A program made the position numbers and the translations under genes. Shown here in pieces: positions 4,621-21,782 of a stretch of 22,153 nt of DNA. The stretch is from a virus: positions 1 through 22,153 of IMG/VR virus record IMGVR_UViG_3300017708_000790; one strand, 5' to 3'. The notes under the pieces were generated by a model. That model ran no database searches. It was not told the DNA's origin and saw only the letters and a list, made by a program, of their open reading frames with translations. Each line of letters begins with the position of its first letter. Positions within the stretch are counted from its first letter, which is position 1.

Positions 4621-5214
4621 ATGAAAACTTGGTCTATTGCTCCTCTATTTGTGCAACCTATTGCATCAACAGAGATTGAAGTAGAATTATCTACACAACT
4701 AAAAACAATTTCAGAGGATGCCTTTTGGTTCGCTGGAGATGGAAATGCATACATCACGTCTAAAGATATGCAAATTCTTGATAAGCATAAAGATCTAAGA
4801 TCTGCTTTTAAGGAAATTACTGAGGATCTCATTACTCAACTTGGATATGATTGTGAAATGCAGATTACTACATCTTGGATTCACAAATTACCACCAGGTG
4901 ATCAAATTTATCCCAAAACTATTTACAACTCTTGGTATACTGGCATGGTATTCTTTGATGAATATACAGAACAATCTGGTGATATTGAGTTCTTTGTTGA
5001 TCCTCAAGGCGTCTACGTTGTTCCTGCTGAGTGGTCGCAATGGACAGCACCAAGTATTCGTTTAACACCCAATTCAAATTACATGATGATGTTTCCTAGT
5101 TATGTAAGACACAGAGTTTATACAAATACTTCAGACACTGATAGGTTATGTCTCATGTTTAACGTCATGCCTAAGGGGCAGACAGGAAGCAATGAATCTA
5201 CATTCGTTTATTGA
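4621..5214 (+). CDS. 2OG-Fe(II) oxygenase-like paralogue lacking the HxH metal ligands
   Basis: A 197-residue protein clearly related to the next gene. Both have an N-terminal APLF/TPIF block, a TTSW strand, NSWY, a MMMFPS/MVMFPS block with RH, then R and NxMPKG/NMMPRG. Between TTSW and NSWY the spacing is identical in the two genes. The HTH of the partner is K99-T-I101 here, so two expected iron ligands are missing. H164 (YVRHRV) and R175 are kept. It may therefore be catalytically dead and serve as a structural or regulatory partner, for example in a heterodimer with its neighbour. It starts four bases after the gene 5 stop, and its TGA overlaps the next ATG. Confidence 0.62.
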   Translation: MKTWSIAPLFVQPIASTEIEVELSTQLKTISEDAFWFAGDGNAYITSKDMQILDKHKDLRSAFKEITEDLITQLGYDCEMQITTSWIHKLPPGDQIYPKTIYNSWYTGMVFFDEYTEQSGDIEFFVDPQGVYVVPAEWSQWTAPSIRLTPNSNYMMMFPSYVRHRVYTNTSDTDRLCLMFNVMPKGQTGSNESTFVY

Positions 5215-5816
5215 TGTGGAACGTAACTCCTATATTTGCTACACCACTACTCCACACTTTCGTAGATCCTAGTATTTGTGACAATCTAAAAAAGATTTGT
5301 GCTCGAATGAAATGGAATCCAGATAGCGATGATACTGGAGATAAAGGTGCAGGAAGTGAAGAAACTTGGGTTTTGCACAGCATGGATAAATCTGTGTTGA
5401 AATACTTTGAAGGTCTCTTCAATCAAAGCATAAAAGATGTTCTTGGGTATGATAATTCTATACAGATAACAACATCTTGGTTTACCAAAACATATCCTGA
5501 TGGTAGTTGTGCAGAGCATACACATACCAACTCATGGTATAGTGCAGTATTATACTTTGATGACTATGACGATGATTCATCACAATTAAGGTTGATGCAA
5601 TTCACTGAAGGCATTAATTCTATGTCGCATGAATTAAACGTATACAATGCAAAAGACTATAAGGTTGTACCACAAAAAAATCTAATGGTCATGTTTCCTA
5701 GTAGAGTTCGCCACAAGGTAACACGAAATAATTCTGATAAAATCCGATATTCGTTTGCTATGAACATGATGCCTAGGGGTCTGTGTGGCAGTGGCGATTC
5801 TGCACACCACTATTGA
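5214..5816 (+). CDS. 2OG-Fe(II) oxygenase-like protein (paralogue with intact HxH)
   Basis: A 200-residue protein. The metal site is visible as H102 and H104 (EHTHTNSWYS), H167 (FPSRVRHKV) and R178, the order expected of the cyanophage 2OG-Fe(II) family related to TIGR02466. The start is ATG 5214, which overlaps the upstream stop (TGATG), suggesting translational coupling to the degenerate paralogue. A TTG at 5211 is less likely. The C-terminus is His-rich (AHHY). Its position after the baseplate hub gene hints at late expression or virion maturation, but the substrate is unknown. Its last codons run into the -35 box of the promoter at 5813. Confidence 0.68.
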   Translation: MWNVTPIFATPLLHTFVDPSICDNLKKICARMKWNPDSDDTGDKGAGSEETWVLHSMDKSVLKYFEGLFNQSIKDVLGYDNSIQITTSWFTKTYPDGSCAEHTHTNSWYSAVLYFDDYDDDSSQLRLMQFTEGINSMSHELNVYNAKDYKVVPQKNLMVMFPSRVRHKVTRNNSDKIRYSFAMNMMPRGLCGSGDSAHHY

Positions 5817-5841
5817 CAAGCGCACCCCTCTCTGCTATACT
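5813..5841 (+). promoter_or_regulatory. Consensus sigma70-type promoter with extended -10
   Basis: TTGACA (5813-5818), a 17-base spacer and TATACT (5836-5841), with TGC immediately before the -10 (an extended -10, TGn). The -35 overlaps the stop codon region of the upstream oxygenase gene. It would fire into the small-gene, tRNA and oxygenase block starting at 5865, using host RNA polymerase. Its -10 region and the bases after it are nearly identical to the promoter at 18257. Confidence 0.75.
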
Positions 5842-5864
5842 ACATAGGTACAGAAGAGACGCTC

Positions 5865-6056
5865 ATGGACTCCCTCTCACACATCTTTGTCAACTTCTCA
5901 AAACGAAAGGTGACTCTCGTAGATGATGAAGGTTATGAAAAGGATGTTCAATGGCACTTTAATTCTGTAGGTGCTGAAGGTTTCTCTGAAACAATTTCTC
6001 AAATACAAGAGATTGTTGATAACGACTTAATTACTTATTGCTTTGCTGTAAAATGA
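5865..6056 (+). CDS. Small protein of unknown function
   Basis: A 63-residue protein starting MDSLSHIFVNFSKRK. The sequence suggests a small alpha/beta fold (VTLVDDEGYEKDVQWHF, then a helix around FSETISQIQEIVDN). I do not recognise a family with a known function. It is the first gene after the promoter at 5813. Its TGA overlaps the ATG of the next gene (ATGA), so it looks like the leader of an early or middle operon. The gene at 18311 sits in the same position behind a near-identical promoter, which suggests similar expression timing. Confidence 0.75.
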   Translation: MDSLSHIFVNFSKRKVTLVDDEGYEKDVQWHFNSVGAEGFSETISQIQEIVDNDLITYCFAVK

Positions 6057-6289
6057 TTGGACCTATTGGTATTACTCTAAAAGAAGCAGAAGACCATTTT
6101 GATTTTATTATTGGTCTCACAGATTCTCAACATGTCTGTTGGAAAATTACTAGGGAAGATAAAAAATCTGTAATGCTAGTTCCCGTAAATGAAATTTCTC
6201 CCATCTCTGATGATCTTCAGGATGATGTAGAAGAGTTTCGCAAATCATTTTTAGAAAAAGTTGGCGTTGGTCTTACTGAAAACGAATGA
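6053..6289 (+). CDS. Small acidic protein of unknown function
   Basis: A 78-residue protein, MIGPIGITLKEAEDHF onward, acidic toward the C-terminus. The start is ATG 6053, which overlaps the previous stop in an ATGA; longer in-frame extensions from non-ATG codons would sit inside the upstream gene. The first half is hydrophobic/charged alternating (FDFIIGLTDSQHVCWKIT), which looks like a beta-rich core. The second half (DDVEEFRKSFLEKV) looks helical. I do not recognise it. It overlaps the next gene through another ATGA. Confidence 0.7.
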   Translation: MIGPIGITLKEAEDHFDFIIGLTDSQHVCWKITREDKKSVMLVPVNEISPISDDLQDDVEEFRKSFLEKVGVGLTENE

Positions 6290-6483
6290 GACCTCAAACC
6301 CGTGAAGCAATGGAAAATCTTTGGTCCGCAAAGTGGAACTTGCCAAAAGCAGCAAAACATGCTAATCTTACTGAGAAAGAGATGAAGATTACATTCAATG
6401 AGTATTGTAATTTCCATCCTCCTACCTGGAAAATTGGTAACACCAAACAAATTGGAGTGCTACACATTGATGAGCGAGTATGA
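6286..6483 (+). CDS. Small protein of unknown function, possibly helix-turn-helix-like
   Basis: A 65-residue protein, MRPQTREAMENLWSAKWNLP onward, with WNLPKAAKHANLTEKEMKITF. The run 'KAAKHANLTEKEMKITFNEY' has the spacing of a small helix-turn-helix or Fis-like module, but this is only an impression. It is followed by HPPTWKIG. It starts in an ATGA overlap with the upstream gene and overlaps the next gene's start by 14 bases. If it does bind DNA it could be a local regulator; no direct evidence shows that. Confidence 0.7.
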   Translation: MRPQTREAMENLWSAKWNLPKAAKHANLTEKEMKITFNEYCNFHPPTWKIGNTKQIGVLHIDERV

Positions 6484-6667
6484 CTTTGGAGGACTTGAGA
6501 AGCATCCTGCTAACATTCTAAGATTGATTAGTGAGTTAGAAGGGTCTTATCAACTCTGTAAATGGATGGGGTTTGAAGAAGACATGAATACTCTCGATGA
6601 AATGAAGAAACCTTATTACAAACTTTATTTCAAACTCAAAAAAGAAAATGCATCTTCGCCCCCATAG
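6470..6667 (+). CDS. Small protein of unknown function, stop codon inside tRNA-Thr
   Basis: A 65-residue protein from ATG 6470 (MSEYDFGGLEKHPANILRLI), mostly helical and charged. I chose this ATG because the longer reading starts inside the preceding gene and its extra residues are the shadow of that gene. The C-terminus (KKENASSPP) is encoded by the first bases of tRNA-Thr, and the TAG at 6665-6667 is tRNA positions 8-10. The same arrangement occurs at cpeT/tRNA-Val. The function is unknown. Confidence 0.68.
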   Translation: MSEYDFGGLEKHPANILRLISELEGSYQLCKWMGFEEDMNTLDEMKKPYYKLYFKLKKENASSPP

Positions 6668-6729
6668 CTCAGTGGTAGAGCAATGCTTTTGTAAAGCATA
6701 GGTCGTTGGTTCAAATCCGACTAGGGGCT
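6658..6729 (+). tRNA. tRNA-Thr(UGU)
   Basis: The acceptor is GCCCCCA (6658-6664) with TAGGGGC (6722-6728), containing one C-A mismatch near the base, with discriminator T6729. The D arm is GCTCAGTGGTAGAGC. The anticodon stem is ATGCT/AGCAT with loop TTTGTAA and anticodon TGT. The T arm is GTTGG-TTCAAAT-CCGAC. It overlaps the upstream gene by ten bases. Confidence 0.93.
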
Positions 6730-6736
6730 CTAACAA

Positions 6737-6778
6737 AGAGGGAGTACAAAAGATCTGCAATTAGAAGCAGCGCCCTCT
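6737..6778. other. Inter-tRNA imperfect hairpin, possible minus-strand tRNA relic
   Basis: Between tRNA-Thr and tRNA-Asn, AGAGGG (6737-6742) pairs with CCCTCT (6773-6778), and inside it CTGC (6755-6758) pairs with GCAG (6767-6770). Read on the minus strand, the inner arm is CTGC-TTCTAATT-GCAG, like a tRNA-Arg(UCU) anticodon arm, followed by TTTGTACTCCCTCT, which resembles a decayed T arm. There is no complete D or T arm. It may be a tRNA remnant or only a processing hairpin between two tRNAs. Confidence 0.35.
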
Positions 6779-6786
6779 ATCTCCAA

Positions 6787-6858
6787 TCCCAAGTAGCTCA
6801 GCGGCAGAGCTATCGACTGTTAATCGATTGGTCGCAGGTTCAAATCCTGCCTTGGGAG
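6787..6858 (+). tRNA. tRNA-Asn(GUU)
   Basis: The acceptor is TCCCAAG (6787-6793) with CTTGGGA (6851-6857), with discriminator G6858. The D arm is GCTCAGCGGCAGAGC. The anticodon stem is ATCGA/TCGAT with loop CTGTTAA and anticodon GTT. The T arm is GCAGG-TTCAAAT-CCTGC. No CCA is encoded. Confidence 0.95.
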
Positions 6859-6875
6859 TTTACACTATTACTAAA

Positions 6876-7475
6876 ATGGCAGACGAACAAATAGGATTTA
6901 CCGAAAAAGTTATGTGGGAGTGCCCTACTCAACTGCCACCAGCATTGATTATGTCAATGAGAAAATATATTCGTGGTTTGACATATGAAACTGCGAAAGT
7001 TAATAGTTCTGATCCAAATGGAAAAGAAACAACATCAACAGCGGTTCGTAAAAATGATGTTGCATGGATTGCATGGGACGAATGGATTCCAGGCATCATA
7101 CACAATATGATGGTAAGTGCAAACGATTCTTATTTTAAGTATGATCTAACTCATTTTGAAAGTCGGATTCAATCTACCATTTATAATGGCAACTCGGAAG
7201 ATTTTTATACATGGCATGTAGATAACTTTACCCAAAAAGATCGTCATCCTGGAGAAGAAAGAAAATTATCATGCACTCTTGTTCTTACAGAACCTGATGA
7301 ATATGAAGGAGGCGAACTACAAATATGCTATTATAAGAATAGGTTTTACAATATAAAACCTAAAGCAGGAACTGCTATTGTATTTCCATCTTGGGTTCCT
7401 CATAGAGTCAGACCAGTAAAAAGCGGACAACGTATTTCTCTGGTAGCATGGATGAAAGGTCCAATGTTCAAATGA
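6876..7475 (+). CDS. 2OG-Fe(II) oxygenase, PKHD/prolyl-hydroxylase type
   Basis: A 199-residue protein with the complete prolyl-4-hydroxylase-type site: H114 and D116 (WHVDNF), H176 in FPSWVPHRV, and R186 in SGQRISLVAW. The stretch LSCTLVLTEPDEYEGGELQI is the typical core of PiuC-like PKHD hydroxylases (residues about 131-150). Of the oxygenase-like genes here this is the best canonical match. It should bind Fe(II) and 2-oxoglutarate and hydroxylate a protein or small substrate, which is unknown. The start is ATG 6876; a longer reading would begin inside tRNA-Asn. Its stop overlaps the next ATG (ATGA). Confidence 0.85.
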   Translation: MADEQIGFTEKVMWECPTQLPPALIMSMRKYIRGLTYETAKVNSSDPNGKETTSTAVRKNDVAWIAWDEWIPGIIHNMMVSANDSYFKYDLTHFESRIQSTIYNGNSEDFYTWHVDNFTQKDRHPGEERKLSCTLVLTEPDEYEGGELQICYYKNRFYNIKPKAGTAIVFPSWVPHRVRPVKSGQRISLVAWMKGPMFK

Positions 7476-19713: not shown

Positions 19714-19722
19714 TGCTATACT
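19714..19722 (+). promoter_or_regulatory. Extended -10 promoter element before the endonuclease gene
   Basis: TGC followed by TATACT (19717-19722), the same extended -10 as at 5813 and 18257. I see no good -35 at 17 bases (ACCCCA). The upstream bases are C-rich, like the spacer of the 5813 promoter. The 108-base leader from 19670 to 19777 has no other gene I accept. Confidence 0.5.
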
Positions 19723-19777
19723 ATTGATATCGGAATGAGCAGCGCCGCAAAGACTCTCCCAAACTTGCTATTTTATT

Positions 19778-20317
19778 GTGCAAATCTCAAACGTCAAAAC
19801 TGCTATTCTGATCGGTAAGTTCGCAATCAATGATGGAACTTCCAAAGCACGATTGAAACTCAACTACGAGAATATCTCTAAAGATGTTCTTAAAGATGAT
19901 GCTGGTCGTGTATATCTTCTCGTCAAGAATGGCGAGATCATGAAGATTGGAGGTAGCATTTCTAAAGGTGGTATCAAATCCACCATGTCTTTCTATCTGT
20001 CCGCTAACACTGGACGCCCTTCAATTCGTTCCTTTGGTATCAATCAATTGGTTTACGAAGCGATTGAGAAAGGTGAAGAAGTGTCCATCTATATGATCAC
20101 TTCGGAGCAAGTTTCTGCACCAGTTAAAGGTCTCTTCGGTTCAGAAACATTATCTATCTCTGCTTTTAAGGAGATGGAAGAAAAGTGTCTTGCTGACTAT
20201 GTTGCTATCAGTGGTTGTTTTCCTGCCTGGAATTATCAGGAATCAGGTAGACCTTGGGAGCAGTATATTCAGGAAGCACATGCTATAATTCTCACTAAGT
20301 CTGCAAAACGTCAATGA
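19778..20317 (+). CDS. Putative GIY-YIG endonuclease (Hpy188I-like restriction enzyme)
   Basis: A 179-residue protein from GTG 19778; no in-frame ATG gives a complete domain. Residues 43-60, GRVYLLVKNGEIMKIGGS, form a GIY-YIG-type hairpin with V45-Y46 and K56-I-G58. As I remember the Hpy188I restriction enzyme, it has the same Tyr-to-Lys spacing (ten residues), the same replacement of the second Tyr by Lys, and a similar following pattern (LFG, then a helix with a Glu). Here the candidate metal ligand is E132, E134 or E135 (FKEMEEKCLADY). The Hpy188I Arg and His positions appear to be K67 and G59 instead, so activity is not certain. The stop TGA overlaps the methyltransferase ATG. A restriction, host-DNA or homing role are all possible. 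The family call is inference from motif layout. Confidence 0.65.
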   Translation: MQISNVKTAILIGKFAINDGTSKARLKLNYENISKDVLKDDAGRVYLLVKNGEIMKIGGSISKGGIKSTMSFYLSANTGRPSIRSFGINQLVYEAIEKGEEVSIYMITSEQVSAPVKGLFGSETLSISAFKEMEEKCLADYVAISGCFPAWNYQESGRPWEQYIQEAHAIILTKSAKRQ

Positions 20318-21225
20318 AAACACCACTCAGATACGCTGGCGGTAAATCAAAAGCATATAAAATTATCACCGAATATCTCCCCGAGTATCTTCCTACGGGT
20401 AAGATTGTCTCGCCATTCTTTGGCGGTGGTAGTCTTGAATCTCGTTGGAGTTCTGAGTTAGGTATTCCTGTTGAGGGGTATGATATGCTGCATCCCCTTG
20501 TTATTTTCTGGAACATTCTTCTAGATCATAACGAAGACTTAGTAAAACGTTGTAGGTATCTTGAACCAAACAAAGCAGAATATGCTGAGGTTAAAGAGGA
20601 ACTTATGAAGTGGTGTATCACTCAGCAAATGTTCCCTAGTCCGCTATATGCAGGAGAAAAAGATAGATGGGCATACTATCGTAGAGATCCAGAGACTACA
20701 CTATGCCACAAAGATGCTGCTGCTTATTTCTACTATAATCACAATCTTTCCTATGGTCCTATGTACCTTGGATGGATGAGTAAGATCTATGAATCTCGCG
20801 AAAAGTGGGATCGTATGATTGATAGATTGGAGAAGTATAAGAATCCTAACTTAAAGGTTCAACTTGGCAATTTCCTGGACACAATACCCGCAAACAATAA
20901 AGACTTTTTGTACTTAGATCCTCCATATTATTTGGAGAAAGATAAGGACAACAAAATGTTTAAGGGGATGTATCCCAATGCAAATTTCCCAGTTTACCAT
21001 AACAATTTTGATCATGAATATCTGGCATTCTTATTGTCACGACATAAGGGACCATTTGTGCTGAGTTATAATAACTGCGAGACCATTCGTGAGTATTACT
21101 CTGAATATGAGTTTGTGTATCCTAAGTGGCACTATTCATATGCTTTAGGTGAGACTCGTGTTGGTAAGAATAAGGTCAATAATGATCCTAAAGAGTCCCA
21201 TGAAATCCTTATCATTAAACGATGA
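20314..21225 (+). CDS. dam: DNA adenine-N6 methyltransferase, D12 (Dam-like) class
   Basis: A 303-residue protein with the alpha-class order of motifs. Motif X is LRYAGGKSKA (5-14) and motif I is VSPFFGGGSLE (32-42), the AdoMet-binding loop. A central target-recognition region lies at about 60-190, catalytic motif IV is DPPY (202-205), and the C-terminal ESHEILI block (294-300) is typical of D12 enzymes. It should methylate adenine in a specific DNA sequence that cannot be read off here. ATG 20314 overlaps the endonuclease stop (ATGA), so the two are translationally coupled. Many phages carry orphan Dam-type enzymes to evade restriction; here it comes with a nuclease-like partner. The last base of the gene is shared with the next gene's start. 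Confidence 0.88.
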   Translation: MKTPLRYAGGKSKAYKIITEYLPEYLPTGKIVSPFFGGGSLESRWSSELGIPVEGYDMLHPLVIFWNILLDHNEDLVKRCRYLEPNKAEYAEVKEELMKWCITQQMFPSPLYAGEKDRWAYYRRDPETTLCHKDAAAYFYYNHNLSYGPMYLGWMSKIYESREKWDRMIDRLEKYKNPNLKVQLGNFLDTIPANNKDFLYLDPPYYLEKDKDNKMFKGMYPNANFPVYHNNFDHEYLAFLLSRHKGPFVLSYNNCETIREYYSEYEFVYPKWHYSYALGETRVGKNKVNNDPKESHEILIIKR

Positions 21226-21767
21226 AACCCGAACCTATTGATATATCAGAAACAAAGAGTGTGCCATCAAAGATAGAGATGCGCCGAGAATGTGGTGATT
21301 GTAGTATGTGCTGCGAAGGACATCTCAACGCTGTTATTCATGGAATTCCTATGAGTAAGGGTCGCCCATGTCATTTTCTTGGCAAATGTGATGGTGGTGG
21401 ATGTACCATCTATGAGGATCGTCCTCCACTATGTGAAGCATATCAATGTCTTTGGAAATATACACCAACTCTACCAGAGTGGATGAAACCTAATCTTTCT
21501 GATGTGATTATGGCATATCACGAAGAAGAGATGAATGGTGAACAAGTGGGGTATCTAACTTTACGCGAAGGCAATAATACTATTAGGTCAGATGTACTCA
21601 ACTATGTGTTACGTTTGTGTCTAGAACATAATAAGAATCTAGAGTATGAATGTAATGGCAGTTGGTATCACTTAGGGGATCATGAATGGATCCGTTTTCA
21701 TGTAGAGAAAGGAGGGGGAGAGGTCCACGATGGTGTGACGATCCCAGAACTGGCGCAGACCCCTTGA
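21222..21767 (+). CDS. YkgJ/UPF0153-like cysteine-cluster protein
   Basis: A 181-residue protein. Residues 24-31 form CGDCSMCC (CxxCxxCC), followed by C50, C56, C61, C71 and C76, with GRPCHFLG and CTIYEDRPPLCEAYQC. This is the YkgJ-type metal-chelating layout (Zn or Fe-S binding suspected in the family). The rest has no recognised domain. It starts in an ATGA overlap with the methyltransferase and ends the operon; its TGA is in the loop of the terminator. Its role beside a nuclease and a methyltransferase is unknown. It could be a metal-dependent helper or an unrelated passenger gene. Confidence 0.75.
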   Translation: MKPEPIDISETKSVPSKIEMRRECGDCSMCCEGHLNAVIHGIPMSKGRPCHFLGKCDGGGCTIYEDRPPLCEAYQCLWKYTPTLPEWMKPNLSDVIMAYHEEEMNGEQVGYLTLREGNNTIRSDVLNYVLRLCLEHNKNLEYECNGSWYHLGDHEWIRFHVEKGGGEVHDGVTIPELAQTP

Positions 21768-21782
21768 CAGGGGTCTTTTTTT
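21757..21782 (+). terminator. Intrinsic terminator of the endonuclease/methyltransferase operon
   Basis: AGACCCC (21757-21763) pairs perfectly with GGGGTCT (21770-21776) around the six-base loop TTGACA, followed by a run of T (21777-21782). The stop codon of the upstream gene (TGA at 21765-21767) lies in the loop. Confidence 0.85.

Follow-up and report, generated by a model that had tools for sequence, protein, structure and literature searches.

Two adjacent genes in the window (22,153 nucleotides, the whole stretch of DNA analysed, from a marine cyanobacterial virus; positions 1 to 22,153 of IMG/VR record IMGVR_UViG_3300017708_000790) most probably constitute a type II restriction-modification module that is carried by the phage and belongs to the HpyAORF481P branch of the Hpy188I family. 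The upstream gene encodes a nuclease and the downstream gene a D12 adenine methyltransferase. The nuclease is genetically linked to one D12 methyltransferase lineage in phages, bacteria and archaeal MAGs, and in related phages this methyltransferase stays nearly constant (94-100% identical) while the endonuclease gene upstream of it is exchanged at gene boundaries. A restriction-modification-like module had already been proposed in the sequence-only reading of this DNA, and the proposal is supported by the Hpy188I-like predicted fold, by the linkage to the methyltransferase and by the invariant residues of the nuclease. The window pair is a further member of a published family of putative type II restriction-modification systems to which S-PM2 already belongs. 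Kaminska et al. 2008 (PMC2630997) tabulate the S-PM2 gene, together with its methyltransferase M.SspSPM2ORFAP, as a putative restriction-modification system, and R.HpyAORF481P itself is putative there.

The genes of the pair and the elements surrounding them are listed in Table 1. The VY and KIG motifs, separated by the Tyr-to-Lys spacing of ten residues pointed out in the sequence-only reading, are present in the nuclease ORF, and the ATGA overlap indeed leads into a D12 methyltransferase that has all three of the motifs YAGGK, FFGGGS and DPPY. Since dozens of independent contigs show the pair, the spacing and the residues again, the observation is not due to chance. Homologues of the nuclease start with ATG where the window gene has GTG, and TGCCATACT or TGCCATAAT is found in related loci at a place similar to that of TATACT in the window. 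The hairpin likely marks the end of the operon. The third gene, whose product shows a sub-threshold CxxCxxCC match, was found alongside the pair only in L002, L003, L005, S-P4 and Syn30, all of which are close relatives of the window. Nucleotide identity to the window is approximately 80% for contig L002 and 71%, over the shared stretch, for Synechococcus phage S-P4. The window also carries three tRNA genes, Val-TAC (661-732), Thr-TGT (6658-6730) and Asn-GTT (6787-6858).

Table 1. Features of the nuclease-methyltransferase locus, in positions of the window.
Feature	Position	Strand	Remarks
TATACT, possible -10 box 5' of the pair	19717..19722	+	read from sequence; weak; no clear -35
GIY-YIG nuclease gene (predicted fold)	19778..20317	+	GTG start, 179 aa; Hpy188I family, HpyAORF481P branch
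Codons Tyr46 to Lys56, VY-x9-K(IG) half of the predicted active site	19913..19945	+	Tyr46 19913-19915, Lys56 19943-19945
Arg84 codon, predicted relocated catalytic arginine	20027..20029	+	
Codons Glu134 to Asn152, predicted metal-binding Glu and PxWN motif	20177..20233	+	
ATGA stop/start overlap, nuclease to methyltransferase	20314..20317	+	read from sequence
D12 (alpha-class) adenine-N6 DNA methyltransferase gene	20314..21225	+	303 aa; PF02086
Third gene, Cys-rich PHROG_9155 protein	21222..21767	+	PHROG_9155 E=7.9e-60; ATGA overlap with methyltransferase
Intrinsic-terminator-like hairpin (8 bp), then T run	21757..21776	+	

A Pfam search of the nuclease returned no domain match at all, and the protein matches PHROG_1111, annotated 'endonuclease' (E=3.5e-22). 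A profile of the nuclease family was needed, because a PDB search with the single sequence gave flavodoxin matches alone, which we rejected as chance. With the profile, Hpy188I is the top match (E=2e-6), followed by T4 endonuclease II (EndoII, DenA; E=0.007). An AlphaFold2 model built on an alignment of 20 phage homologues reached a mean pLDDT of 92.4 and a pTM of 0.87. When this model was submitted to Foldseek, the sole strong matches were Hpy188I (E=8.9e-7, prob 1.00) and T4 endonuclease II (E=5.8e-6). VIA-align overlays the model on T4 EndoII with a Z score of 14.1 and an rmsd of 2.6 over 129 residues, and on Hpy188I with a Z score of 9.8 over 115 residues. The nuclease is thus predicted with high confidence to have the GIY-YIG fold that had been suspected from its motifs. 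It resembles R.Hpy188I in the predicted fold, in the catalytic Tyr, Lys and Glu and as the best sequence-profile match, and T4 endonuclease II, likewise a phage-encoded enzyme, in giving the best structural overlay. To the latter its sequence similarity is weak, and T4 EndoII has no methyltransferase partner.

The active site of the nuclease is predicted to be intact and to be of a family-specific kind. Across all 75 viral and cellular homologues, Tyr46, Lys56, Gly58, Tyr73, Glu134, Pro149 and Asn152 are invariant, so the catalytic Tyr, Lys and Glu, along with the Asn, are retained throughout. Lys56 stands in the place of the Tyr of the YIG half-motif in each of them. (Another, wider alignment, A2, had too much diversity for use in a genome scan.) In the sequence-only reading the catalytic Arg appeared to be replaced by Lys (Lys67). 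This is incorrect: in the profile alignment Arg84 of Hpy188I falls on residue 69, which is Thr in the window and Thr or Cys in the homologues, and all 75 proteins have an Arg further on, 48 of them at residue 84 and 27 at residue 85. The apparent replacement of a His by Gly (residue 59), also mentioned there, holds for the window, but the position varies among homologues (Gly, Gln or Lys). The Lys of the YIG half-motif and the displaced Arg have a precedent, as in the HpyAORF481P branch the Tyr of the YIG motif is described as replaced by Lys, and the Arg as relocated to either of two adjacent alternative positions, 104/105 in Hpy188I numbering, whereas Hpy188I itself has its Arg at the orthodox position 84 and a methyltransferase of the gamma class (PMC2630997). 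The window pair therefore differs from R.Hpy188I/M.Hpy188I in its relocated Arg and its D12 (alpha) methyltransferase, and agrees with the HpyAORF481P branch in the Lys of the YIG half-motif, the relocated Arg and the adjacent PF02086 methyltransferase partner. Our literature searches for the specificity of HP0481/HpyAORF481P, and for cleavage or methylation data on members of the branch, found none.

The methyltransferase matches PF02086 with E=6.5e-21 (75.6 bits, compared to a cutoff of 22 bits), and its FFGGGS motif precedes DPPY, which is the alpha-class order. The best PADLOC model for it is the type II model PDLC03281 (E=2.7e-73), which is also the best model for the Helicobacter partner. 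The S-PM2 methyltransferase is 60% identical to that of the window. The ordinary cyanophage Dam, at approximately 26% identity, shows the methyltransferase of the pair to be a separate lineage. A Dam-like match is found in 346 cyanophage records, compared to 11 that have the pair. Of the 12 phage records that have the methyltransferase lineage of the pair, 11 also carry the nuclease. Separately, a 642-kb uncultured phage genome (L021, LR756502, 3327-4894) encodes a member of the lineage (51% identical) without the nuclease and has a 214-aa gene upstream of it.

Using the nuclease alone as the query, we found 77 viral contigs. The methyltransferase lies directly downstream of it in 49 of these, and with one gene in between in a further 12; 13 contigs lack the pair's methyltransferase nearby, and three end too early to tell. 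Thus, 61 of the 74 viral contigs that are long enough to judge have the methyltransferase downstream of the nuclease. Of the 39 distinct phage pairs that have no inserted gene, 31 show the exact 4-base overlap. The pair occurs in the named phages S-P4, S-E7, Syn30, Sf-CH11, Sf-CH1a, S-PM2, in which it spans the record ends, and S-SCSM2R. Scanning genome contigs gave 30 cellular loci of the nuclease, mostly from Helicobacter but also from Bacteroidales, Patescibacteria, Rickettsiales and archaeal MAGs. The methyltransferase adjoins the nuclease in 23 of them: 20 have it upstream of the nuclease and on the same strand, usually no more than a few bases away, and three have the two genes converging from opposite strands. 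Members of the family thus do sit beside an adenine methyltransferase, in viruses and in cells. The counts also indicate that phages have the nuclease first, usually with the 4-base overlap, whereas the Helicobacter and other cellular loci of the branch mostly have the methyltransferase first. At three Helicobacter loci (L142, L146, L150) a second methyltransferase or a putative restriction gene separates the two genes of the pair or adjoins them, which gives the impression of one system inserted into another.

Both genes of the pair are under purifying selection, with dN/dS values of 0.09-0.21 for the nuclease and 0.03-0.08 for the methyltransferase (0.06-0.08 when compared to the nearest relative of the window gene).

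The trees of nuclease and methyltransferase are strongly discordant, even though the distances still correlate overall (Mantel r 0.45, 49 viral pairs). In L012 and L025 the methyltransferases are 98% identical and the nucleases 34%; the corresponding values are 95% and 36% for L008 and L030, and 94% and 35% for L068 and L082, where the alignment breaks at the start of the nuclease and resumes at its end. Some operons have, between nuclease and methyltransferase, a middle gene of one of three families (Xp, Xq and Xr; 320-394 aa), which is swapped between otherwise similar operons (L004, L006, L007, L012, L025, L026, L030, L033-L036, L045). L006 and L036 encode identical methyltransferases, nucleases of 49% identity and middle genes from different families; at the nucleotide level they are 94% identical from the start of the methyltransferase on, and 96% identical in an upstream stretch of 223 bases. 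L006 and L007 match in nucleases and methyltransferases and differ in the middle gene. The window lineage has probably taken part in the exchange, since its nuclease shares 81-84% identity with the nucleases of L004, L006 and L007, but its methyltransferase only approximately 60% with theirs.

The exchange partner is either another GIY-YIG clade (34-49% identical) or an unrelated HinP1I-like protein. In L039 and L042-L048 the position of the nuclease is occupied by this unrelated protein of 234-268 aa. As a lone query it was found in 10 contigs, nine of which have the methyltransferase of the pair downstream, L165 being the exception; phage and plasmid collections yielded no relatives. A model of the protein (pLDDT 75, low at the N-terminus) matched HinP1I in Foldseek (E=2.8e-5) and in VIA (Z 11.9, compared to 4.9 for the next unrelated entry, MvaI). 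We consider the HinP1I-like fold a prediction of modest confidence for a protein outside the window. That an unrelated restriction-enzyme fold appears to fill the slot independently supports its being a slot for restriction endonucleases. The methyltransferases behind the replacement protein share 84-95% identity with those that follow GIY-YIG nucleases, and the phage partner is an adenine methyltransferase, whereas HinP1I is GCGC-specific and has a cytosine methyltransferase. Nuclease exchange between close phages is not described in the paper on the HpyAORF481P branch (PMC2630997), and, as far as we searched, the open-licence literature describes neither gene-level endonuclease exchange nor the second fold in the slot.

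Since the methyltransferase is constant while the nucleases vary, either the nucleases share a site or the methyltransferase is broad. The exchange looks like an arms race, and its repetition may, less surely, reflect counter-selection by inhibitors or resistant rivals. We tentatively propose, with more doubt than confidence, that a single adenine methyltransferase, which may be broad in its specificity, shields the phage from interchangeable endonucleases of GIY-YIG clades or of the HinP1I-like type, and that nuclease and middle gene are replaced like cassettes while the phage is engaged in an arms race against rivals or hosts. This raises the question of whether different restriction folds have a common recognition site, or whether one methyltransferase protects against many.

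In a module of the restriction-modification type the methyltransferase would mark the phage DNA at some adenine site, and the nuclease would cut DNA without the mark; less surely, the DNA under attack could be the host chromosome, that of co-infecting phages, or both. There are points against such a module. In the model, the nuclease appears structurally at least as close to T4 EndoII, an enzyme without a methyltransferase partner, and the 13 viral contigs mentioned above have the nuclease without the pair's methyltransferase nearby. Moreover, very different nucleases behind a constant methyltransferase are odd if the recognition site must be common, and endonuclease-first is the less safe order for a classical system.

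As to what the module is used for, the destruction of unmarked DNA of co-infecting phages is a plausible answer, which we rate a little short of an even chance. Most cyanophages lack the pair's methyltransferase lineage, and endonuclease exchange behind a near-constant methyltransferase is expected in an arms race with inhibitors. Ordinary recombination at a common operon boundary could also give such an exchange. The pattern leans slightly towards exclusion or inhibitor evasion.

A less probable use, which fits as well, is the degradation of host DNA: the nuclease would cut the host chromosome like T4 endonuclease II, and the methyltransferase would provide a self-mark in place of the modified cytosine that protects the DNA of T4. 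The pair would then be a restriction-modification system biochemically and a takeover tool functionally. The best structural match of the nuclease model, T4 EndoII, speaks for this use. So does a review according to which denA, ndd and denB are missing from cyanomyoviruses, modified bases are not in evidence there, and degradation may follow an undescribed route (PMC2984593). However, the small minority of cyanophage records that have the pair, compared to those with a Dam-like match, means that it cannot be the general route. Furthermore, the one viral restriction system for which we found a test of this kind, that of marseilleviruses, does not degrade host DNA (PMC7253447). The marseillevirus and chlorella virus systems resemble the pair in that nuclease and methyltransferase are both carried by the virus, and differ in belonging to viruses of eukaryotes (PMC7253447).

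It is highly improbable that the nuclease is a free-standing GIY-YIG homing endonuclease which sits beside the methyltransferase gene by chance. Homing nucleases of the GIY-YIG type are common in T4-like phages, and the contigs with the nuclease but not the methyltransferase would fit such an enzyme. We nevertheless rejected it because of the linkage to one methyltransferase lineage, which extends over three gene arrangements and over phages, Helicobacter, Bacteroidales, Patescibacteria and archaeal MAGs; in addition, the nearest solved structures are Hpy188I and EndoII rather than I-TevI. Pfam detects no accessory domain, but it matches nothing at all in the nuclease. Equally improbable is an inactive relic, in which a working methyltransferase is accompanied by a decayed nuclease: a prophage copy (L122) is frameshifted, but the active-site residues are invariant and the dN/dS values of the nuclease are low. 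In this prophage-like record (4970-7409) a gene resembling C5-cytosine methyltransferases and another candidate nuclease gene come after the frameshifted nuclease.

Little work has been done on lytic phages that carry a complete restriction-modification pair. Since cyanophages are reported to be without the host-DNA-degradation genes of T4 and without known modified bases, the putative restriction-modification pair described here is a concrete and testable candidate for the discrimination of self from non-self DNA in the ocean, with S-PM2, Syn30 and S-P4 as existing isolates that have it.

Among the middle genes, Xq matches PHROG_2615 and Xr PHROG_2558, and one family has no PHROG. Two profile comparisons revealed no similarity between the families, a PDB search with two of them gave nothing better than chance, and no Pfam match of the middle proteins was above the cutoff, with a weak, sub-threshold DGQHR-like hint in one. 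Relatives of two families were also seen in other cyanophage genomes. In S-CAM22 (L158, NC_055710, 1435-3909) the gene for a 208-aa protein has a 4-base overlap with that of a PF01555 N6/N4 methyltransferase, which is followed by a relative of Xr; this candidate pair is found just upstream of a helicase gene, near the place of the pair in S-P4 and Syn30. In S-RIM8 (L159, NC_020486, 2923-3921) a relative of Xq is flanked by psbA and the major head gene; cyanophages are known to have phage homing genes in this neighbourhood.
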